The position numbers and the translations under genes are program-made. Below are positions 42,496-58,611 of a stretch of DNA of 64,000 nt, piece after piece; the first letter of the stretch is position 1, and each line of letters opens with the position of its first letter. The notes beneath the pieces were generated by a model, which saw only the letters and a program-made list of their open reading frames with translations, was not told where the DNA came from and did no database searches. The DNA comes from Caenorhabditis elegans (taxonomy: Eukaryota; Nematoda; Chromadorea; Rhabditida; Rhabditidae), in the NCBI RefSeq assembly GCF_000002985.6, contig NC_003284.9, positions 3,410,001 through 3,474,000 on the forward strand, given 5' to 3'.

Positions 42496-45400
42496 TCAAG
42501 TTTGTTCTTGTGTGACGATTCCATTGTTACGTGGAATTGACCGGAATCGTTGAGCAGTGCCGTTTGTCCCGTCTGAGAAAATAAAAATTAGATGACATTT
42601 TGCTTCCAAAAACTCACAACAACTATGAGCCAGCGTACTTGCAGAGATACCCATTCGAGGAACTGCTTTTCTAACACCTCCACGCGGAACGTCTCCTTCA
42701 GAGTTCTCCCCGTCAGCTTCAGAAGATCCACCATCATCGTCCATCATCAACGAAGACCGCTGACTATCGTCGTCTCGTTTCCCTTTCAGCGGCCTTCCTC
42801 CCAAATTCCGATTCCGACTCGTTGGCCTTGCATTCACATCAACCCGAGCAAAAGCTCCGTCACTGACCGAATCGTAGGTGTCTTCTCGTGGAGTACTTCC
42901 ACGATTCAACTGACGCCTAGTTGCTGTCTGGAATATATCCTGTTTTGTGTAAGAATTTTGGTGTTTTCAAAAGCTACTTACGTCATAAACGTGCCCTCCA
43001 GGTGGTGGTGGATTGGAAGGTGGTGGCGGAATAAAGTCCATCAGAGTCTTATTCGGTGGTGTTCTCCGCTCCCCAGTTCTTTCCTTACTACTACCAGTTC
43101 CATCGGATGAGTGAAGCTGAAACAACATTTCAAGTAAAATTCTGATTTCGAGAAGCTATCAATCAAGTTAGTCATGGTTAGAAAACAAAGTAAAAAGTTG
43201 CCGGTTAAATCTATCTATCCTAAAAATACCTGAACATAGCTCACATCTGTGTGAGGTGGACTATCCGACCGTTGACTTCCGCTAGTCCGGTGATGGAGTC
43301 CGCCATTCAGAGTTCCTCTCCCATCGGATGCACGGCTCGATCGAGATCGTCTTCCAGCGGTATGATCTGCATATCGCGCCGGTGGCTCTGGTGGCACGGG
43401 ATTTGTTGGCATTGCTGGCGCGCGAAGCATTTTGTCATTGAGCCAAGCTGGTTGTTGGTTCGACAGGACCAGTGTTGTGGTGGCATATGGAGATGGATCA
43501 TCGTGATATTGGTTTCCATAAAAAGTAGACATCGCATTACCAGGTCCGCCAGTCAGTTGAGCATAATGATAGTGATGCTCGGATCCTGGTCTGTGCATCG
43601 TTCCACTGTAGTCATCACAATTGTTGAAAAAGTCTTGCGCATTTGGTGTCAGCGAATAGAGAGCCTGGCCATTTCTATTGTTCATAGTCATTCTTCCAGC
43701 AGTGTTGTACATTGGATTCTGATTCGGATTTTGTGCAACATCCCAAAGATTATTCGAAGCCATATGAACACTTCCATCATTGATCTTTATAAAACTTCGA
43801 TCCTTTCCATCACTGTTTCTGCTATTCCTCCAGTAACAATAGGCTATAATGATGACTACGAAAATAATCAGAATTGCAACAATGACAATCACAGGAACAT
43901 GAGATTTATTGATCAGCCCATACAAAAATGATTCGTTTTCTTGTTGAGCAGCAAGGTGTTTTTCCAGCGTGTCTTGATCTTAAAATTAACATAATTAAAA
44001 TTTAGTCATCTTTTCTGCAATTATTCAATTAACATACTCATGATGACTTCACTCGTTCCATGTGAGACTCCAACTCCACCATTGCTTCTAGCCGCTACAC
44101 GAATTTTATACGTCATTCCAGTCACTAAATGGAACAGAGTAACACTGGCAGCTCTCTCGTTTGTAGTGATGTTCCGATTGTTGTTGGGCGCTTGACCAAC
44201 AATAACAATTTGGAATCCTTTGAGAATTCCGTTGATGCCGTCGGCTTTTGGTGCTTTCCAAGAGATACGAAGAGTGGTCAGGTTGAGCATACGGATTCGC
44301 ACATCCTCTGGTGGCAATGAAGGTGCTGAAAAAAACATTGTTTTACAAAAGTATGCTTGACTGCCTATAAAAACTTACGAGCTTCGGCGGTCAACACGTC
44401 CATGGAATTACTCGGTGCTCCATGAATACTATGAACTCCGGAATGATAAGGAATCACGAAAAACTCATAGTTGGTGAATGGCATTAAATTTGAAACAACA
44501 TAGTTTTCGGTGCTAGGGCTGGTCACATTCACGTATTGATTATCATTGGTTCTTGGAGGCCCTCTCCACTTGATGTAGTAACCATCAATCAGCTCTTCAA
44601 GTTTCCTCTTCTTCCAGAACAAACGAACGGCCGTAGAATTAATAGTCTTCACTTCCTCGAGTTTTATGAGTTGTTCCGAAGTGAGTCTCTTCTCAGCGAT
44701 GGCCATGTCCATTTTGTTCTTGTCAGAAAGCGCAACTTGAGCTGCTGGCTTGCTAGTGGTAACGAGAGCCGACGACACACTCGGCGTTCCAATACCTTTC
44801 TCATTTTCTGCTCGAATCACAAACATATACGAGTGAGATGGTTTCAGACCCTTTATTCTATATTCAGTAGATGCCACGTAGTCTGGAATGTTAAACCACG
44901 TCTGTCCGAGGTCTGGACTGTAGTACTGAATGATATAACCAGTGATTGGTCCTGCGCCAGATGTGGAGGGAGCATTCCAGTGGAGCTCTACTTCGGTATC
45001 AGTGACATTGACAATAATGGGTTGCGTTGGAGAAGACGGGAAGTTCGATGGATCCGGCATCCGAACAAATTGTGCATTGCTAGTGTGATCTTCAACAGTC
45101 AGAGATGCCGACCATGTTGACTCTCCATCCTCGTTCTTCGCAATGCAAGTGTAAACTCCGGTGTCAGGTTTCCTGAAATTATATAGTTTAGCTTGCAACT
45201 TCTCATGTTGTTTTCTATCCGACAACTCACTTTAAATCGGCAATATGTAGACTTCCCGTTGAATGTTGACTGATACGACTATCTGTAATGTCAATAGGTA
45301 GCCCATCCCTGAGCCATGATATTCCTGGAGTTGGTTTTCCGCTAGCCTGACATGGAAGGATGGCTGATGATCCAACCATAAGGGTCTGATTTTGATGACC

Positions 45401-48400
45401 ATGCTCGATTGTTGGTGGTGGTTTGGCGGGTGTGTTTCCGGTCACGGCTGAAATTAAATATTTGATAATTGATTGAACATTTTTTTGTTTCTGTTTGCCC
45501 ATTCTTCCTCTCTTCAAATGTTCAATTTGTCACAATGTTTTGTTGAAGCAGTTAAAAAAACCGAAAAATGACAGAGGAAGAACAAAACGCGAAATCTTGC
45601 CCGAAATTCTCATTTTTCATCTTGTTTCCAAACCACCGGACAAGTGGCTCTTTAGCAGAACATTTGGCGCGCTTTGCCGGCATTTCAGTGAGCACCACAG
45701 CAGGAGTATGAGCCACGGAGAAAAACGCGGCAGCAGGAGCACAAGAAGAAGAAGAAGAGCGGGATCCAGCAATTTATCATTGTTGGGACAATTGTTCGCA
45801 CATAATTGAGATGTGTTGTACATCGGCCCGTTTCCCGCTCATCTTCTTCTTGTTTTGCAGACAAGCGAGAACAAGTGTTTATGACCCGTTGACGAGTGAA
45901 TGATGATGATCACGACTGATAATAAACTTCACTCACCCAGGCAATCCGTGCCGTTCACGCACATCAGTGCCGAAGTCAAGCTGAAGACAGAGCCAAATAT
46001 CATTTGACTATGTCATAGGGTTACTCTAAAATGTTACAATTTTTGGTAAGGAAAGAGAAAAAATTGTTTGAAGATCACAGAGAAGATGACAAGATTGAAT
46101 TGAAAAAGGTTCATTAGGCTGATGAAAAGCAGTATAAGCCGTCCCCTTCCGGAGAGAGCCACCCAGGGTGTATTTCTACGCGGAGGACGCCTCGACAAAT
46201 GACCATCGCAATGACTAACCACAACACACGCATGACAAGGTTTCATCTTGCATCATTACTTTTCAGATTGACTAGCTAAACGAAATAAGAGAATTTCGGG
46301 TAAGCAGGGAGACAAAAACGGGGCGAGTAGATGGTGTGGCTGGCGGTGGCGGTGGGTGAGAGGAGACCCTCACAAAAATGCAATTGTTTACGATTGGTTG
46401 AGAAAACGAAAAAGACAAATGGGAAATGAGCTCCAACACTCCCGATGTGAAGGCAGAGATAAAAGGTGAGCCGTGTCGTTTCGTTTCTGATTGGGCAAAT
46501 TGAAAATTTTACTTTTTACGAGCGACAGAGAGATATACGTAAATAAAATATGTACGTACAAAATAAGGGGGTTTTGTGTTTTTGTGTACTTGGGGGGGGG
46601 GGTTGCATCGAAAAAATATTATTCTGGCCTACCAGTAAACAAGTTTGGACCACACACACTAATAAGATCAAAAAGTATTGAATAGTGGGGAAGGGGCAAT
46701 GGAAAAAAGAAAGAAAAAACCACCATATAAAAAAAGGAAAACGTTTCAATGATCCGAGGTGTCTAATGATAAGTGGCCCTCTCTAGCTCTACGCATCCCG
46801 GGACACACACACACATGTCGACGTATTACATCCATCTCTCCACACCAACCAGAAATGTTGAACAGCAGCTAAAAGGAGCACCGCCCTGCGCCCTGCCTCT
46901 CCCATTCTCTACACCCCACAAGATACCCCCACCGTTTACAAATTGATTCATAAATCAGCTCAATATTTATGTTGCGAGTTTTAATTGACTGATCTCGGCG
47001 GCACCGACGTGCGCGGCTACACTAAATAATGAATAAAAGAGATTGCGGCGGGAGCGAGCGATCGTAGTAGTAGTCCCGCCGTCCTTTGTGTTCGTGTACG
47101 ACGACGTCATATGGTGCTTTTGGCGGAGAATGGTGGATGAGTTATGAGAGACCGACAAAAAGGCATCCACGGCAGGTTTCGAGGAATCACAATTTTACGA
47201 AAAATTGATGCAACGAGCAAAAACTATAATTGACGGGAAAAAGTTCAAGTCCAGTTTTTTCACAAAATCTCAAAACTTGGAAAGTCTCCATTTAAAAAAA
47301 AATTAATAAACAAGCCGAACTCTATAATTTGGAAAAAAACCAACTGTTATGAGTCTTAACAAAACTGCTTGAATACCTAAATGAAATGTAACCTGGCAAA
47401 CGATGCGGATAGTAGAAGAATGGAAATTTTGCGTTTTTCTGGGTGTGGTGTCCGTTTTCGGACATAAAAGATGTCTAAAAGTTCACATAAATCACACGTC
47501 CTAATCTTAGTTCTTCTCCTTCTCTCTTTCCTGAAAAGTCAAGTAAGAGCATGTACGTACGTACTCATATTCTATCTGATCAGATTTCGAGATGTGGTCG
47601 TGGCGGCGGCGGCGGTGGTGGTTTTTGTCGTTACGTTAAACTAGTAGTGCAGCAGCAGCACAAAAAGTCTATATTTCAATGTGAAACATATGATAATAGT
47701 GTGCGAAAAATGTCGCAAAAACGCGGCGGTGAAGGAGTGTAGAAAAATAAACGCGGAGGTTACGATGAGCTTCAAGAAAATTGGAAGGAAATAGAAATGT
47801 GTGGAAAACGGGGGGGGGGGTGAGCTCCGTTTCGTTTTCAAGTACTACTTCTGAATTGAGCCCGTGCTGTCATCAAAGCTAGGAAAACGGAAGAAGAAGA
47901 CTGCAAAGCTATGAAAAAAAACAACAACAAAAATATATATAGAAATCAGGCGTGGGACCCAAAACAAAAGCCTAGCTCTAAAAAACCCCAAATTAAAGCC
48001 TAGAAGAGCAGCATGAACAATGAAAAATTTTCAGACATTAAATAAAACAATTAATATTCACCGGGTCTTTATTTTTTTGCAAAGCGGCCAAAATGTAAAA
48101 ACGAAACGAAACGTTCATAATTCTTCCAACACGCTAACCAAGTCATTTAGATTTTTATTTATTTGTTACTTATAACATCTACCTTCATTTGTATATTTAG
48201 TCTAAAAAATGTTACCAACTATTCAGAAGTTTAATGTTGAAATCAGAACTAGTAATAGTGGGTGCTATAATTATGGTGACACTATAAAATTTATCGCTAC
48301 GGAAAATTGATAACACAATTCGATACATTTCTAGTAACTTCCACATATTTATAGTACTATGATCGAAAAAAAAGAAGCTGATAATAATTTTTAAAAAGAA

Positions 48401-51400
48401 TTTTGAAATTCTATAAAGAGTGGAAAAAAGCGGTGTCAACTTCCTGCACGTCACCACTATATTAAAAATTTTGAGACCAACATGTTTTTTTTCGATAAAA
48501 AACCGTGAATACAAGGATTTCCTATTGAAAAGTCAAAGTCAAAAAGAAGCGCCAAGCTTTCTTATTCCGGCTGGCACAGACGTTGGACAAACATATGGTT
48601 TTCAGGAGGACAAATACCTTGTTTATTTTTTAATAACTATATGTATGTGTACAGATGTATTTGTTAAATACACAGAAGAAAGGGGAAAGTAGAATAGTAG
48701 AATAGATGCAAAGCGATGCAAATGCAACTTCTTCTCACAACACTGTCTCAAAACATTTCTCAACTCCACATATTTTTGGCGAACATTTTTGGTAGGAACA
48801 AAAATGCTACTGTAAAGAAATATGGAATGATTGAAAGCAGCGGATGGGAGAGTTTATTATTATTATAAGAGATCCGAAATATGTGTGACAGTAAGGTCAA
48901 AGGACCTAAACGTGCCGCCGTCATCGGGTGGCAGGAAGATCGCTCCTCTACCTTCTGGTATAATTATCGCACTTACTTATCGAAATTTGAGCGCAAAATT
49001 GGTTTGGCGGTAATTGTGGTGGACACCCGACTGGTAGCGGGGTCCGTCCAAAACATCCGGTAAGAAAAAAGGCGAAAAAGGCAAAAAACCGAAATGAAGA
49101 GTGTCATGTTGACTCAACAGATTTTTTTTCGGATAGGTAGTCAAGTGAATGTGCAATTTGATATTTTCAAAAGAACAAAACAAAACAATAGTATTTTTCT
49201 GTTGTTGTAAAGAAATAATATTCTAAAATCAAAGTGGAACCACACAATGCTCGAGAGAATTTTGAAGAAAAAGAAAAAAAAATTGAAATCATAAAAATGA
49301 TCGTTAGGGTTGGCCCATCTTCTCTGCCCAATCATTGCAAAATTTATATACATATTGCCAAAAGTTTTAAACAATCAAAGAGAAAAAGTATCGTATTGAG
49401 GACAAATCGAAAGTCCTCAGTTTTTTTTTTGCTGAGAAATAGTGACCGGAAAGACATGTCGCTTCTATTGTTGTCAAGAAAAGGGTCGGTGTGTTCATCT
49501 CCAATTCCTTGGTTCTTTTCAAAAAAAAAACGAACCAAGTATAGTTCATTTGAGATTCAGTAGGAAAAAATGGCAACCAAAACTCAAGCCGCGGAACTAA
49601 AAAAAAAGTGAGTGAAAAGTGAGACGGCAGATCATGACCAGGTATTACTAATGAGGGTATAAAGTATGGTCCAGTGATCGCATAGAAATGTAACTTATCC
49701 CATGCAAGGTTTCGCCTACAAATCCGAAAATGAGCCTAGGCGATGAATAGTGGGGGGAACGCCGCGCGCGGTCAACTTGTCAAGTGAGCATCCACCATAG
49801 TGGGTGAAAAATCACGCGCATCTGGCTTGAGAGCGGCCCAGTGAACGTGTGAATATTGTACGGAAACTCGCGGGGCATTGTCTCAAGCTGTCCTCTAATG
49901 GTAACGAGCTTGACACGGAAGATGGGGATGGAGGAGAAGCGATAAATCATCTCTGGTAAGAGGTTTGATTTTGATTAATTTATGAGGTGATGGAAGCAGA
50001 GCAAGCAAGTGTAGGCGGGGGTAAACTGAATAATTTCACAAAATCTATGTACTATGATTATTTCTAGGAATTGATTTTTTTCGCTGGATTAAAAAAACAT
50101 ACAACATGATTACCTTAGGACAGGTGTTCACGCAAGATTAGATATAGAAATTCATGGAAATTGACAGCCTTCAATGTCATTCTCTTTTTTCACCTTTCCC
50201 TTATTTAAAAAGAAAGAGAGTGGCCAAAAAGGTGCGCAATACGCATACATAAAAGACTTTTGTGATGTCTTTTTCTTAATTCATACATAAATTTCCAACG
50301 TTTTCTACACATTTAGTGTTTGTGTGTGTGTATGTGTTTCCCCAATAAAGTCGAAAAGATGTCGGCGGGTTGCTTTATGACTCCAAACAAAAACCTCCAA
50401 ATGTGGCAATAATTTATTCATCTCTCATCTTCAGCCCGACGTTTTCGGTTCAAACAAGCATATATTTTTTTTTAGTGTCTCATTTTTAGTGGCTTGTAAA
50501 AAAGTAGAAACCTACTGAAACCGGTCTAAAAATAAAGTGCCGACAAATGGTTAGAAGTAAAGGAAAAAAGGCAAAAGCTGGAGAGATGAACTATACGATT
50601 TAGGGCTAGAACAACACATTGAAAAAATAGGAAAAAAAGAATTCGAATCGATCGCATCCTCATTGTTTTGTTTATCCTCTCCTGTCTCTATTACTAGTAC
50701 CTTTAGCAGTGTTTGGGTGTGAAATGGATTAGTGATGGGACGGGACAGGGGATATATACGGATGGACTATTGCAATGGTTTTCAACTACTACTATAGTGC
50801 TTCTCTCTATTCAAAACCAAACAAAATGGAAAGAAGGGACACACAATCCTACCGATTGGCTTTTTTGTTCAGACTTTCCTATTCTAAACATTTCTGTAGG
50901 AATTCTGTTGAAGGGACCACCAAGGTCACATAATCGGATTGTTAGTCTTTTTTCTCTTGCCCCCGCCTGTTAAAATCCTTATAACGGGTGAGTGAAGACG
51001 AGGAAGAAGAAGTAATGGTAAAAATGAAGTCAAAACTTGGTACATTTTTTGAGAACAGTCCTGTAGTTGAAAAACAAAACACGCAGAAACTAGAGTTTTA
51101 AATTAGAATGCTACTCAAGCAACGCGGCGCACTCTAAATAGAAACAATGGGGGAAAAGTCGGGGGCCAAAATGGCTGCGCGGATGGGTTTGGAAACAAGT
51201 TATGCTAATCAACTGAGGGCAAGATTTATTTTCTTTTTCTTATTTGCTCTTTTTTTTTTGGACACGGCCTTTGGTTTCAAATGTTGCCTGAAATATGAAA
51301 TAAATACTTTCACTAACCTTTAGTTGTAACTTTCAAAGCTGCCTTGCTCAACGAGCTTCCTGCCGAGTTCATTCCAGCGCACACATAAGCTCCCTCATCA

Positions 51401-54400
51401 ACTTGACGAACTTCCTCAATTGTCAATGTTCCAGTTGGTGAAACTTTCGTTCTACCATCAGCGGACACATAACTTGGGAAAAGAAGATCCTGTTGGCCTT
51501 CCTTGCTCCAAAAATAGGCGGGACTCGGTTGACCGACCAAGGTGCATTCAAAAGTTGCCGTGCCTCCAGCTGGAACTGACTGGTCTGCTGGTTTTGTCTG
51601 GAAGGATGGAGGTGCCTGGACACGAAGATGTGCAGATGCTTCAAGAGTTCCCGCTGGATTTCGTGCATAGCAAACGTATTCACCTTCGTCTGATGGTTGA
51701 ACTCTGAAAAACGTGGGTATGAGAAATTGTATTTAAGATTCGCATTTCTTTTCAGAAATTTGAAAAGCTCAAATTATTTCAATTTTCATTAAATTCTATA
51801 AAATAATGTTCCCTTTGATTTTTCAGTTTTTTCTCGATTCGCAATTTACATTGAAATTTCATTTTGAAACTTTTTATTATTTTAAATTGAAACGTGACCA
51901 TTTTGTGATTTTAAACTTAGTATTGTTTTTTATTTTCTAGTTTTTACAATTGAAGTAGTAATGAAATATATATGCGTATAAATACTAAACACTTCAGTGC
52001 TGAAACATTAACAACTTTTTGGGGGGACGAAATCTATTGGTACCTAATCATTTTTTTTGTATAATGCGACTGTTTTCCAATAAGTACAATAAGTATAGGC
52101 TTTGTAAATTTTGTAAATCCAATACTTTCCCATTTAGATGCCTAAACTTTTCAATAAAAAGGCTCGCAAACAGGTGTCCAACAACTATCATTCATCAATG
52201 TATTTCAGATCATAAAAAATATAACCTAGATCTCCGAAAACGGTTATTAGATTATGTCTCTTCGGTGTCTCTTAAGAGATAACTAAATCCTTTGCAAGAT
52301 GAGATAACACCTCGACTTTCTCCCACTTTTATTACCTTTCGATTCTCAACCCCCGATTATCCTTGGCAATGTATGCACGTGTAACTGGCATCGGCTCATT
52401 TTTGCGTTTCCACGTAATTTGTGGTTGAGGATCTCCAGTCACACGACAATCAAACAGCACTGCGGCTCCGACGTCGACCGTCATGTCCTTGGGTTCTTGC
52501 TGAAATCAACATCAAATGAATAGTAATACTAATCATCGAATTAGTAAGATTGAGAATAGAATACAGGAAGTTACAAAACCCCCTGTCGACATTTTTTTTG
52601 TTAATCTACCAGTCATTTAGCATTTTCATCGGAACAATGAAATTGAAACGACCTTGAGTTACAATTTAAATTAATTTTAAAAGGACTATCGCTTCCACAC
52701 GTACCTCAAACTTTGGTTTCTCAAAGACACTCAATCTTGCGGGATTGGACACCCGTTCTCCGACCATGTTGTTGGCAACACACTGATAAGTACCAGAATC
52801 GCTTCGATCGACCGGATCAATGATGAGGTTTCCGTCAGAGTGTAGAGTGTATCGTGGCATGTCTTGAATTCGGAGCTCTTTGTCGTCTTTCCGCCAGCTC
52901 ACAACCGGCTCCGGGAATCCACGTGGCGGACTGCATTCCAGAACGGCCATCTCTCCACCAAGAGCCTGAAAACAATTGAGTAACGCTTCTGTGAATAATT
53001 ATTTTTTAATGGTCTAAAAATCGCGTTGACAAATTGTGCAGTGCGGTTTACAGTTTTTGAAAAACTGACGAATGAAGTTTTTTGTAACATTGATGGTCCA
53101 AATCTTCGGTTTTTCGGGGTTACCAAAAATTTTCAACTGACAAAATAGTGATAATTTTTTTTTTCTGTAGTTTAACACTAAAAAATGAGGTGACATATTT
53201 GAACTGACTCAGAATATGCCGTTTTATTCTCTATTTGTGCGGCACCCCAACTGTTTAACTGACAGCATATGTCTCGAATGCTTTTGAAGATATTAAGAAG
53301 TTCAAAAACAATAAATTTACAGAGAAATTTAACAAAACTGTGCTCAGTTAAAATTTTTACAAAAAATCCAATTTGACCGAGATACGAACTGTCAGGGTTG
53401 AGCCATGGAAATGCCGCAGTAATAGAGATTATAAGGTAAACTGTCAAAGTAGAAAAGTGCAGGATTAAGTGAAAAAATACGTAATATTATTCAAAGTATT
53501 AAACTTTACCTGAACTGTTCTTGGCCGAACTCGAAAGTCTTCGCGAAGCATCGCCAATTTTAACGATCCTTCGTTCGACTTCACTTCTCCGTGCTCGTTG
53601 CTGGCCACACAATAGTACGCTCCCGCATCGCTGTCTTTTCCGTTTTTTCCACTATTCACTTTCAGAAGAAACAGGGATCCCGTGTCGAGAACAATCCGGT
53701 GGCTGTTCACTTGCTCCTTATTCGTGATTACGGGCTGTCCATCCTTGTACCATGTGATTTTGGCGGTAGATGGCTTTGCACCACAGTTGAGGGTTGCTGG
53801 CGATCCCCTAGATACCACCACATCGATGGGATGTTCGATTATCACGGGAGCGAGATTTGAGGCATCTGAAATTATATTCAAGATTTGAAAAGGTTCAAAA
53901 CAACATCATTCCCCTGTTAGAATTTTTTTTACTTTCCTCATCTCCCATTCATCTTATTTCCACATACATCAACACTTTGATTTTATCCATCTTGACAATG
54001 TGAATAAGAAAGGAAACTTGTCCAAGTGCATTAAATCAATCTGACCGATCCGGCACGCGCAATACTGTCACATCTGTATTATGGTGTCGAAACGAACACC
54101 TTCCCTCACCGATTTTTCAGTAGAGATGTGCGACACTATTGTCCTTGACGGACGGTAGGTAATAAAATGATTCACTAGGAATTTTATCAAAATTTATGTA
54201 TGTGTGTGTGTGTGTGTGAGTGTGGTAAAAACCTAGATAGTACATTAACGGCTGGTTTATTGGGTGTCGGTGGTCTATTACATAAGATTGCCATTGACCT
54301 CCGACGGATTACCCATCTTCTCCCATCTGCTTCAAAAAATATCAAAAAGCCATTTTGAATCACTTGTTTATGGCATTCACCCTGACACTGCTGCGCACAC

Positions 54401-55842
54401 ACTTAATAAAAATTTCAGCAGGCCGACTTGTTTTCCTCCACTTCAAAATACGGACCACTGTTGTTTTCCACTAGTAAATTACCAGACCAAAGTGTGGCTA
54501 ACAAGCTGCCGGATTCAACAATTTAATTAGCCTGGCTGTCCTTCTGTCTCTTCTGTCACCTCTTTAACCTTTCAACAATCTAGCGTGCCAGTGTCAAAAT
54601 GTGCGCACGCGAGTAAACTATCCATGAACCAATGTATTGTACTCTGGCTACAATTTAATGGCCGTGTTAACCTTCAAAATATTATACTACGCTGCCTGCC
54701 CGCCTTTTCATCCATAGGCAAGACAAAACCAAAGAGCTGTGAAGATGTACACATATCTCATCCTGTCAACACCCAATTTCACAATTCGCCCGTCATTCTT
54801 TCGCAACACATTGGTGTTGAAAGCTTCTGCTAAAAAGCAGGCTGTCTTTCTAAAACATGAGATGCAACTGAATATTTTGGACAGCGCCAACAGCTCATTA
54901 ATAACCTACTAGTCTCTGGGGAGGGATTTCAAATAGCTTCTCATCTTCTATCAACCGCATGCTAATGATTCTCAATTTTACGGATATTCGCATGCATCTT
55001 AAAACTGTGCTAAAATGTTTAAATGACCCAGGTTGGGGCAATTTATCACATTGAATAATGACTTGCACATTGCACAAATTACATTGTGGAAATGTGGAAA
55101 TGTGGAACAAGACAAATATCGAGAGTCTGCGGGTGGTCGCTCCCAACTGTTTCTTATATTTTCGTTGCAAATTACACTGGCTCTGGTCGCTGTACAAAAA
55201 GACTTATTGTTTTAAGAGATTAGCATTTGAATGGTGAATACTTGAGAACACGCGCCTCAATGAGACTAACTCCTCTCATTCATTTTCTATACCATTTATT
55301 CTCCCCCCGTCCTATTCACTATTGTTTTCTCAACATTACCATCCAAAAGCGGGGCTTGGCTCGGCCAAGAGGGCAGATGGCAGTCCAAAACGATAATCGA
55401 ATCTTTTTACACTATAGTCGGCAAACGAGCTCACAATCCAAGCAGCGAACCCGCTTTTGGTGTTTGACAAAATGAAGAGTCATGTCTAATAGCGCAAGAG
55501 TAGAAAAAGCAGCGAGTAAAGAGCATTTTTCCAAGATGGAGGGCATTCGTTTCCGCGCATTCAGTCAATCTTCGTTTTAATCGCTTTCTTCGACATGGGA
55601 AATACAACCCAACCTAATGGATTTTCCAAGTTTCCAAGTGAATTCAAAGAAAACCCACGAGTGGATCGAATAGCGTGTCTTGTTGGCGACGCGTTTTTTT
55701 CACCATGTAACTTGACACTTTTGGTACATTCTTAACTTAACATTTTTTTTCTAGAAAAAAAAAACCAACCTTCGCAGAAGCTTCGGATTACTGCTTGCAA
55801 TACCAGGAGGATAGTGCATAACAGCGTTTTTCGATTGAACAT
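42496..55842 (-). CDS. sax-3: Roundabout-family axon guidance receptor SAX-3
   Basis: Robo receptor for Slit (SLT-1), guiding axons and cell migration at the cell surface. Twelve coding exons on the minus strand: 55842-55770, 53865-53510, 52965-52705, 52499-52336, 51703-51318, 45447-45231, 45172-44379, 44325-44038, 43978-43230, 43116-42982, 42927-42618, 42572-42496; all phases fit, about 1,269 residues. Order: signal peptide MFNRKTLLCTILLVLQAVI; Ig1 (exon 2), Ig2 (exon 3), Ig3-Ig4 (exons 4-5), Ig5 (exons 6-7), three FN3 domains (exons 7-8), membrane span VPVIVIVAILIIFVVIIIAY (exon 9). The cytoplasmic tail has a CC1-like PSPYATTTL and a proline-rich CC2-like IPPPPSNPPPPGG that can bind Ena/UNC-34. 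Sequence agrees with C. elegans SAX-3 as I recall it. Introns 1 (1.9 kb) and 5 (5.9 kb) are large; intron 5 contains an alternative first exon and an opposite-strand gene. Confidence 0.97.
45937..46003 (-). CDS. sax-3: Candidate alternative first exon of sax-3
   Basis: On the minus strand an ATG at 46003 opens a 67-base exon encoding MIFGSVFSLTSALMCVNGTD and two more residues, then a strong donor (G|gtgagtg). It ends in phase 1, exactly the phase needed to join exon 6 at 45447. An acceptor attttag lies 22 bases before the ATG, as expected for trans-splicing. The hydrophobic 15-residue core could be a signal peptide. The product would keep Ig5, the FN3 domains, membrane span and tail but lose Ig1-Ig4, including the Ig1-Ig2 region that binds Slit in Robo proteins (family knowledge). 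It may already be an annotated isoform; I cannot check. Confidence 0.6.
46026..47130 (-). promoter_or_regulatory. Possible internal sax-3 promoter region
   Basis: The kilobase upstream of the alternative exon is GC-richer than most intronic sequence here. It holds an 8-base perfect inverted repeat (cggcggga at 47046-47053, tcccgccg at 47074-47081) beside a CGAGCGATCG core, and a CRE-like tgacgt/acgtca context near 47100. These fit a promoter but no element is proven. Confidence 0.35.
46592..46602 (+). repeat. Poly-G tract (11 G)
   Basis: Run of 11 G on the plus strand in sax-3 intron 5. Confidence 0.95.
47471..47742 (+). CDS. Candidate nested gene for a secreted Gly/Cys-rich peptide
   Basis: Lies inside sax-3 intron 5 on the opposite strand. 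Exon 47471-47542 encodes a near-ideal signal peptide (MSKSSHKSHVLILVLLLLSF, then LKSQ) and ends at a consensus donor gtaaga. After a 41-base intron ending ctgatcag, exon 47584-47742 continues in frame: ISRCGRGGGGGGGFCRY, then a basic Gln/Lys segment, one more Cys, and a KRGGEGV end at TAG; 76 residues. AATAAA follows at 47746-47751, four bases after the stop, and may be too close to be used. The Cys-Gly-repeat-Cys core recalls glycine-rich secreted peptides of nematodes but I assign no function. The Gly run is coded by a GGC/GGT repeat, so length may vary between strains. The intron is near the lower length limit. Confidence 0.5.
47810..47820 (+). repeat. Poly-G tract (11 G)
   Basis: Run of 11 G on the plus strand, 70 bases after the candidate nested gene. 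Confidence 0.95.
47830..51310. other. Remainder of sax-3 intron 5
   Basis: About 3.5 kb of intron. GC-richer segments at about 48890-49030 and 49740-49960 stand out and may be enhancers; the latter includes a palindrome ccgcgcgcgg near 49763. A short GT run lies at about 50322-50336. No further exon with signal peptide or fitting phase was found. Confidence 0.4.
53866..55769. other. sax-3 intron 1
   Basis: A 1.9-kb intron separating the signal-peptide exon from Ig1. It contains a (GT)n run at about 54198-54220 and several less AT-rich stretches (54280-55000) that may be regulatory. No nested gene is supported. Confidence 0.5.
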
Positions 55843-55925
55843 GATCTTGTTTTATTCAATCTGTGTCCAATTTCAAAGGCTGCATCTAATTGTGGCGGTG
55901 TTCTGAATTTCCAGTTGGGAGACAC
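55843..55925 (-). other. sax-3: sax-3 5' UTR exon segment
   Basis: An 83-base leader precedes the ATG at 55842. It begins after a strong acceptor (tttttcttgcag) at 55926, so the leader is either trans-spliced here or joined to a non-coding exon further right. Confidence 0.65.
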
Positions 55926-58611
55926 CTGCAAGAAAAACACAAAAGTAATCAAAGTTATTGGCGGTTGTTTTAAGAGTGGGCGACAAAATGACGGAAAGAG
56001 AATGAGGGAATATAAAAGGAGAAACAAGACAAAATAGGTGATGGGAAAAAGATGGAAAAGGGCGAAAAAAGCGTGGCCCTGGGTGTAATCATTCATCTTT
56101 GCTAGGGTGACACTCGGGAGAATAGATTTAGAAGGAAAAAAGGAAAAGACACAACAAAGTAATTGAAAAGTTGACGAGCGTCGTCGTCGTCGTTTTCAAG
56201 ACGCGAAGACGATTTGTGCGTCCGTTTTTGCGCATTTTCGGTGGTGGTGGTGGTGGAGCGATTCGGACGGAAGCCGACCCTAAATTGGACTAGAGAGCCA
56301 CATTCTAGAATGAAGAACAAATTTAGTCTTCTACGCGACGGAAGATGTTGGACAAAAAAAAATAAAGAAAAAATGCACGGGAGGCAAAAGTAGCCAGCAG
56401 GAAGACAAGCAACAAAAAAAATGAGGACGCAAAGTTAGGAGGCAAACGTAGTGAGACTGGTTAAAGATGACGCGCAGAAGGACGGATGAAGGATGGATAT
56501 AGAAGATGAAAGAAAATGAACAAGTCGATTTTGAAAGGATTTTCTTAAATGCGGCGAGGCGTAATCAAAATTTGGTGTAGTGAAAAGGCAACTTGAAAAA
56601 GGAAACCTACTCTGACAAAAAATATAAAAAATCTTTAGTACTAAGTTCGTGGCAGATTGGGAAGTGTGCAGGAGTTGTTTCAAACTGCACAAGACTCCCG
56701 AAAAGCTATGCAAAATTTTATTTTACGCAGGAGTTGTGCAAGATTGTAGTAAGAATCCGTTGAAGTTTCAATCTAAGTAGAACTTCATCAAGTCTATATA
56801 GGCGTTTTACTTTACTTGGGAAATTTGATTTTTGCCAGAGTATCAATAAAATAACTATAGCTACAATTTGAACATGGAAATTAAAAACTTCAAACACAGC
56901 AAAATGGCCAAAATTAGGAAAATACCTTGAAATTAAAAGAAAAACGGATTTTCAACATCACCAAATGGTTCAAAATTTTTATACATACAAAAAGCTTTCA
57001 TTGTTTCTCTAACAACCAAAAAGAAACAAATCACAATTTAGTACAAATGCATTTGCAGAACATTTAAAATGAGGACCGTTGAGACGAATTGCTAGAAGGC
57101 GTAGACGCAGAATGTTAGACATCAGATTTCCTCTTCAAGGTGTGTGTGCAATGCGCGGGGAGATAAACGCGCAAAGAGGAGTGAGACAAGTATCGATTTA
57201 TGTTGTGCCAGCGATTGAATAATACTGATTAGATAAACTATCTGGCAACAGGCGGGCGAATAAGAAAAATCAATACGCTTTATTCTAGACAAGAAAGTAC
57301 TCGAGAACATATCAAAGCTCTCAACTCAATAAGGTCGTCAGAAAGCTCATAATTGTCAGATAAATAACCTAAATAATGCGCGTCAAGAGCACGGCGATGA
57401 CGGATGTCCATGTCATGCAAGCGGCTCGATACGGAACGAAACCGCATGGAATATGAGGGGATAGCCGGGGCTATACGTCGCCCCCTTCCCTGGTTAAGTA
57501 ATTATTCCAATTCGTGGCCGCCCTCCTCTCACATTCGACTACCCGTTCATTAGGTCCATTGTAGACCGAACCTATGCCCATGGACCAACGAGGCAAACGA
57601 TTGGGGGACGGGAGGACGACGAAGAAGAAGGAAAACCCGGCCCTGTCATACAACATCTGTCGTGTTGTGTCTATACGTTGTCAATGAGCAATAGTTACAC
57701 TTGTAGTGGAACCGATAAAATTCGCAAGAATAGGTGGGGAGATTCGAAGAGCCTGTGATTTTTGCGGGGAAGCAGACGGTGGGGAAATGTGGAAAGTAAA
57801 AAAGTGAGAACCAGTGACAGGAATTGACCATAATTTCGCAAAGGTGTCGGCGGGGCGAGAAGCTGGACAATAAACTTTATGGCACTTTACAAAGTGCGTT
57901 TGTTCGTTGAAATGAGAAGATCACCTCTTTTTCCGAAAAGCAAAAAGTTCAGAAGAAAGATGGCACAATAACCAAAAAGAAAAAAAAAAGAAGCAAAAAA
58001 TGCAAAGAAAAGTGTGATGGGATGGGAAAGTCTACCAGGGAGAATAGAATTGTGGTCCGCCGCAATTCGTCATGGGGTCCACTGGACACCTGCTCGACCG
58101 GACGACGGGTCGATGGCGTGAAAAACGTGGATTGGAATGGGGGACGTCAAAGAGGGGCACGAAAGTGTGCGCCAAATGATTTTTTCCCCCTCCCATCTTT
58201 TCTCAATTCCGCGCTCCTTTGCCCCGCCAAGAAGTGGGTCGCCGGCGGAGCAAGTGGTCAGTGGCAGACGACGGTGAGCAAAAGTGGGTTATGCAAATAT
58301 TCCTGCTCTCTCGGTGATATTGAATCTCTCTTTTTAAATCCAAAGAAACATGAGGTGCGTGAGAAATTATGATATGGAAGTTTTTAATACATGCACGTAT
58401 ATTTTTCGGCAATTTCAAACTTTCAGACAATTTTTGAGCACTTTTTCAATTGTTTCAAATAGAGAACAAGTTATTTTCAGATAAAAAATTAATTTTCCAT
58501 TTTTTGTAACTAAATTTTTATTTAAAAAAAAACTACTTCGGGGAACATGCCAGACTGGCTCATTTTGTAGAATTGCCAGCCTGCATTTGCCGCGCACCTT
58601 TGGCACAAATG

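Follow-up and report, generated by a model that had tools for sequence, protein, structure and literature searches.

A candidate alternative first exon in intron 5 of Caenorhabditis elegans sax-3 and the short Robo product it predicts

Intron 5 of the sax-3 (Robo) gene of C. elegans contains, on the minus strand, an 89-b stretch (46025-45937) which has an open frame, a strong donor and a phase match to exon 6, and the product encoded by its join to the downstream exons has the domain content of a shortened Robo. Judging from these sequence features, we favour, with somewhat better than even confidence, the reading that this stretch is a real but minor alternative first exon of sax-3. We infer the transcription, the 5' end, the translation and the secretion of the short form along the following lines. 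Transcription would begin within intron 5, the RNA would acquire its 5' end by SL trans-splicing at 46025 or else from a start site immediately 5' of it, and the candidate exon would be spliced onto exon 6. Translation from 46003 would then give an 878-aa receptor consisting of Ig5, three FN3 repeats, the TM segment and the tail, lacking both the Slit-binding Ig1 and Ig4, the dimerisation domain.

The sax-3 locus and the join to exon 6

The sax-3 gene lies on the minus strand of the window (the whole 64-kb stretch of DNA that was analysed, to which all positions refer), and four published sax-3 oligonucleotides (two RT-PCR primers and two sgRNAs; PMC7676865) were all found as exact matches within it. 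The long form of SAX-3 was rebuilt from 12 coding exons (55842-42496, minus strand) as a stop-free model of 1269 aa and 139 kDa in which all the introns are GT-AG. Five I-set and three fn3 domains were identified in it by Pfam, and a hydrophobic stretch, VPVIVIVAILIIFVVIIIAYCYW, which is the putative TM segment, is encoded by exon 9. The long form has the Robo architecture of five Ig domains, three FN3 repeats and one TM segment. With 631 of the 1269 aa used as query, human Robo2 (6iaa_A) aligned with residues 29-625 (E 2.4e-157) and the Robo1 Ig1-Ig4 crystal constructs (5ope_A, 5o5g_A) aligned with residues 29-411. Codon 414 is split by the exon 5/6 junction, which falls in the linker between Ig4 and Ig5. 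The parts of the gene and of the candidate exon are as follows.

51318-55842, minus strand: long-form coding exons 1-5, which encode the signal peptide and Ig1-Ig4 and are absent from the predicted short form
45448-51317, minus strand: long-form intron 5, in phase 1 and with 5870 b the largest of 11
45231-45447, minus strand: exon 6, the first exon common to both forms, with the linker and the start of Ig5
42496-45172, minus strand: exons 7-12, common to both forms, with the remaining Ig5, the FN3 repeats, the TM segment and the cytoplasmic tail
45937-46025, minus strand: the 89 b within intron 5 proposed as an alternative first exon of sax-3
46008-46016, minus strand: upstream ORF of two codons (ATG ACA TAG) in the leader of the candidate exon

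On the minus strand the candidate exon is directly preceded by ...ACATTTTAG and directly followed by GTGAGTG, and it consists of a 22-b leader, an ATG at 46003, 22 codons in all from this ATG and one further base. The frame of the ATG, 5' of which there is a stop codon in frame, encodes MIFGSVFSLTSALMCVNGTDCL plus the one base, and when 45937 is joined to exon 6 at 45447 the phase is the same as that of exon 5, phase 1 (G|CC = Ala). Together with exons 6-12 the candidate exon encodes 878 aa without a stop, corresponding to 96 kDa before processing. This computed join has reproduced the exon, the ATG and the donor phase matching exon 6 which had been put forward in the original prediction, and the ATG, the donor and the phase all fit an alternative first exon. 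The GC content of the candidate exon (0.48) lies inside the range of the 12 sax-3 coding exons (0.44-0.52), and its GC3 is 0.73. On insertion into the long mRNA, the candidate exon brings in GAG TAA and hence an instant stop.

The predicted short form comprises Ig5, three FN3 repeats, the TM segment and the tail, with Ig1-Ig4 missing, and Pfam returned one I-set and one fn3 domain for the first 258 of its 878 aa. Since the junction lies in the linker between Ig4 and Ig5, whole domains are retained in this form. The claim that such a SAX-3 would start just before Ig5 and be devoid of the homologue of the Slit-binding Ig1 was borne out by Pfam and by the alignment of Robo1 to residues 29-411, and Ig4 is missing as well. 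In terms of class, the short form is a truncated product of a Robo gene and not a canonical Robo receptor, as Ig1 is lacking.

The frame of exon 6 was also found to be open upstream, past its own acceptor, as far as an ATG at 45502 (45502-45448, minus strand; MGKQKQKNVQSIIKYLISAVTGN), so that retained sequence could be translated into exon 6.

Splice signals, signal-like peptide and chance expectation

The following features were scored around the candidate exon.

45931-45936, minus strand: donor GTGAGT, strong, phase 1, 7.7 bits
46026-46035, minus strand: acceptor AACATTTTAG of the candidate exon, weak, 3.5 bits
45981-45990, minus strand: competing acceptor TCTTCAG (TCTTCAG|CTTG) within the candidate exon, which moves the exon start to 45980, rank 6 of 253
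45938-46003, minus strand: signal-like peptide MIFGSVFSLTSALMCVNGTDCL, predicted cut after TDC, von Heijne score 4.87
46026-46525, minus strand: candidate internal promoter or outron stretch, drawn post hoc from composition only

The donor and acceptor matrices were built from the 11 sax-3 introns only. On this scale the candidate donor ranks second among the 315 GTs of intron 5, the sax-3 donors covering 5.3-8.8 bits, and the candidate acceptor ranks 34th among the 253 AGs. The 11 sax-3 acceptors score 7.2-12.4 bits (5.3-11.5 in leave-one-out scoring), all above the 3.5 bits of the candidate. An acceptor at 46118 clears the same threshold and gives a 182-b exon with an identical frame. A start at 45980, set by the competing acceptor, leaves the in-frame ATG at 45964 alone with loss of the signal peptide, and the peptide from this ATG has a von Heijne score of -0.16.

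The consensus of worm SL trans-splice acceptors is given as UUUCAG/R in PMC11347140. The candidate acceptor reads UUUUAG/A, with a mismatch at -3 and with the Us and the R at +1 retained. It had been described as fit for trans-splicing, which overstates a site that scores below every sax-3 acceptor; because of this weakness, SL1 trans-splicing at 46025 is possible yet not indicated. The predicted signal-like hydrophobic core is mediocre. Its von Heijne score (the usual cut is 3.5) is 4.87 versus 9.30 for the long-form signal peptide, its best 10-residue Kyte-Doolittle mean is 1.85 versus 2.88, and it contains no basic residue.

The 500 b upstream of the candidate exon have a pyrimidine fraction of 0.598 and a GC fraction of 0.432, and the corresponding values upstream of exon 1 are 0.608 and 0.430. 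Both values were reached jointly by 4 of 3800 overlapping windows of the X chromosome and by 2 of the 22 windows of intron 5, and on account of the latter this composition lends weak support to an internal promoter. Another stretch of intron 5 (50067-49568, minus strand) shares the high pyrimidine and GC content seen 5' of exon 1 and 5' of the candidate exon. Over 43000-56000, no Rfam match was obtained at the gathering score, and the reading as an RNA element was rejected on this ground. A search of 651 b around the candidate exon against its own genome gave the self-match only, which excludes a repeat or duplicated sequence at the sensitivity of that search.

The chance expectation was estimated on both strands of 20 segments of the X chromosome, each 10 kb long (400 kb in all, real exons included). 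These were scanned for phase-1 exons between 40 and 150 b long in which an ATG opens a frame of 15 codons or more and which encode a hydrophobic stretch no weaker than that of the candidate. With the donor and acceptor cut-offs set, post hoc, at the observed values, one place was found in 400 kb, or 0.015 per 5.87 kb. When the donor cut-off was the weakest sax-3 donor, 15 places were found (0.22 per 5.87 kb), and at the leave-one-out minimum donor this number was 53 (0.78 per 5.87 kb). The leave-one-out minimum as acceptor cut-off gave 10 places (0.15), and the candidate exon itself fails at this level. A second scan, which included the signal-peptide score, returned 1 place in 400 kb at the observed thresholds and 23-52 per 400 kb at loose thresholds (0.34-0.76 per intron). 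Among 300 first-order Markov copies of intron 5, a match with a signal score of at least 3.5 occurred in 4 (0.0133) and a match at the full observed level in 1 (0.0033), and under loose thresholds at least one full-level match was present in 22 of 100 copies. Since the looser cut-offs predict 0.2-0.8 exons of this kind per intron, the candidate exon is only suggestive; it does not stand far above chance, and the evidence for it comes mainly from the donor.

A second phase-1 open candidate exon was seen in intron 5 in the loose scan (49596-49352, minus strand). Its signal score (5.54) and hydrophobicity (2.43) are higher than those of the candidate exon, and its donor is weaker.

Readings of the candidate exon

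The reading as an alternative first exon is favoured by the phase-exact 878-aa frame, the donor ranking 2 of 315, the exon GC of 0.48 and the expectation of 0.015 at the observed cut-offs. It is further favoured by the exon-1-like composition upstream, the position of the junction in the linker, the precedent of ten-1a/b, a short form that should be cleavable and a tail that binds SYD-1C. The weak acceptor, its stronger competitor within the exon, the upstream ORF and the mediocre signal peptide weaken it, and so do the 0.2-0.8 exons expected at looser cut-offs, the second candidate at 49596-49352, the strong defects of ky123 and the fact that papers on SAX-3 isoforms were not found in the open-licence literature, among the matches listed. 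The main rival, which we regard as possible though doubtful, is chance, in that a long intron may simply contain an open frame which is not used and which happens to end at a good phase-1 donor. It gains from the 0.22-0.78 exons expected per 5.87 kb when the thresholds come from real sax-3 sites, from the weak acceptor, from the second intron 5 candidate under loose thresholds and from the fact that 2 of the 315 intron GTs reach this donor score anyway. It loses from the scan of the X chromosome, where a donor cut-off at the observed strength left a single place in 400 kb of strand, and from the Markov copies of the intron, of which 4 of 300 had a match scoring 3.5 or more for the signal and 1 of 300 had a match at the full level.

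The exon could also serve as a poison cassette between exons 5 and 6, where GAG TAA would lead to a secreted Ig1-Ig4 product of 414 residues or to nonsense-mediated decay. The computed frame of 414 aa ends in ...KVTTKE, the exon length of 89 b is not divisible by three, and an exon starting from the acceptor at 45980 also stops at once (G|CT TGA). However, a cassette has no need of the ATG, the signal-like peptide or the phase match, all of which would hence be coincidences, and its acceptor is weak; we consider it highly improbable. Some other short product might start from the acceptor at 45980 with the ATG at 45964 (MCVNGTDCL...), an acceptor that ranks 6 of 253, or from retained sequence at 45502 (MGKQKQKNVQSIIKYLISAVTGN...), where the frame is open across the exon 6 acceptor. 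Such a product would be mis-oriented or cytoplasmic because a good signal peptide is missing from the 45964 start (score -0.16) and presumably from the 45502 start, and as a signal-less product is unlikely to be useful as a receptor, this too is scarcely to be expected. If the candidate exon is used as a first exon, the Slit-binding and Ig4 domains are missing from one Robo form of the worm, only the long form is tested by the presumptive null ky123 and by the Ig1 allele ky200, and a deletion confined to this exon would separate Slit-dependent from Slit-blind Robo functions. If it is unused, it is simply one of the open frames that arise by chance in long introns.

Alleles, possible action and known systems

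The signal sequence and the first exon are reported to be deleted in ky123, and ky200 is reported as an Ig1 allele. Some 9.7 kb separate the candidate exon from coding exon 1, and owing to this distance both alleles should spare the predicted short form, for which the allele commonly used as a null may then be no null. HSN defects were reported at 20% in ky123 versus 2% in slt-1 (PMC4398414), and in the AMsh glia ky123 showed defects like those of yad10, with none in slt-1 (PMC7676865). These Slit-independent defects of ky123 imply that the short form, if it is made in this mutant, is not sufficient for those functions. They speak against the earlier suggestion, in its simplest version, that it could act on its own independently of Slit, and this suggestion is unsupported so far. 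The yad175 allele removes FN3-b, which is common to both SAX-3 forms, and its AMsh defect is stronger than that of the other alleles examined, although it is otherwise a weak allele (PMC7676865). The authors have ascribed this strength to lost cleavage (PMC7676865), and a contribution from loss of the short form to the yad175 phenotype is possible but unneeded. A wider proposal, which we make tentatively and hold to be rather unlikely, is that an internal promoter yields a Slit-blind, Ig4-less receptor that is left intact by ky123 and ky200, the published 'null' phenotypes of ky123 being those of long-form loss with the short form present. If this Slit-blind reading is true, removal of shared domains, as in yad175, could expose functions hidden so far.

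The sax-3 RT-PCR primers given in PMC7676865 lie at 52457-52435 (exon 4) and 51353-51335 (exon 5) on the minus strand, and from these positions the mRNA measurements made with them report the long form only.

As to its action, the short form would most likely be a Slit-blind receptor which modulates the full receptor or competes with it and does not replace it, since the FN3-b cleavage site and the SYD-1C-binding tail would be retained. A GFP-FN3-TM mini-SAX-3 without Ig domains was reported to be cleaved in FN3-b (PMC7676865), from which it follows that the short form should be cleaved too, leaving the same stub; the part from FN3-b to the C-terminus has a computed mass of 67 kDa versus the reported stub of ~70 kDa (PMC7676865). 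The binding of SYD-1C by the SAX-3 tail was described in PMC4398414. A tuning or competing role of the predicted short form seems plausible.

Public databases presumably hold two sax-3 isoforms, a and b, and if isoform b begins at the candidate exon, the finding is already known. Searches of the open-licence literature for SAX-3 isoform wording and for ZK377.2 found no paper among the matches listed, and sax-3 was absent from the titles and abstracts shown for papers matching ZK377. The DUTT1 promoter of Robo1 is reportedly, going by the title of a reference, an alternative promoter.

Vertebrate Robo genes are diversified by splicing too, as in exon 6b of Robo1/2 and in Robo3.1/3.2 (PMC6687390, PMC12308364). 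Exon 6b inserts four residues between Ig3 and Ig4, and no removal of Ig1-Ig4 is described, in the parts of these sources available, among the vertebrate Robo isoforms compared. In the domain deletions of Drosophila Robo1, Ig1 was needed for Slit binding and repulsion, and AVM guidance is reportedly impaired when Ig4 of SAX-3 is deleted (PMC7580999). The Drosophila series consists of engineered variants, none of which, in the available part of that source, equals Ig5 with three FN3 repeats alone.

UNC-5B of C. elegans is a shortened guidance receptor whose function is separable, and it is spared by alleles affecting the long form only (PMC10464613). It arises at the 3' end, is without the cytoplasmic domains and has RNA-seq support (PMC10464613). 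The ten-1a/ten-1b pair of C. elegans (TEN-1L/TEN-1S) likewise represents one gene with two promoters and long and short transmembrane forms (PMC2887410). The short teneurin loses the intracellular domain, whereas the short SAX-3 would drop the outer Ig domains and keep the tail, and against the two promoters of ten-1 the internal promoter of sax-3 is putative. Short forms made from internal or alternative ends are already known for worm guidance genes, as ten-1b and unc-5B have shown.
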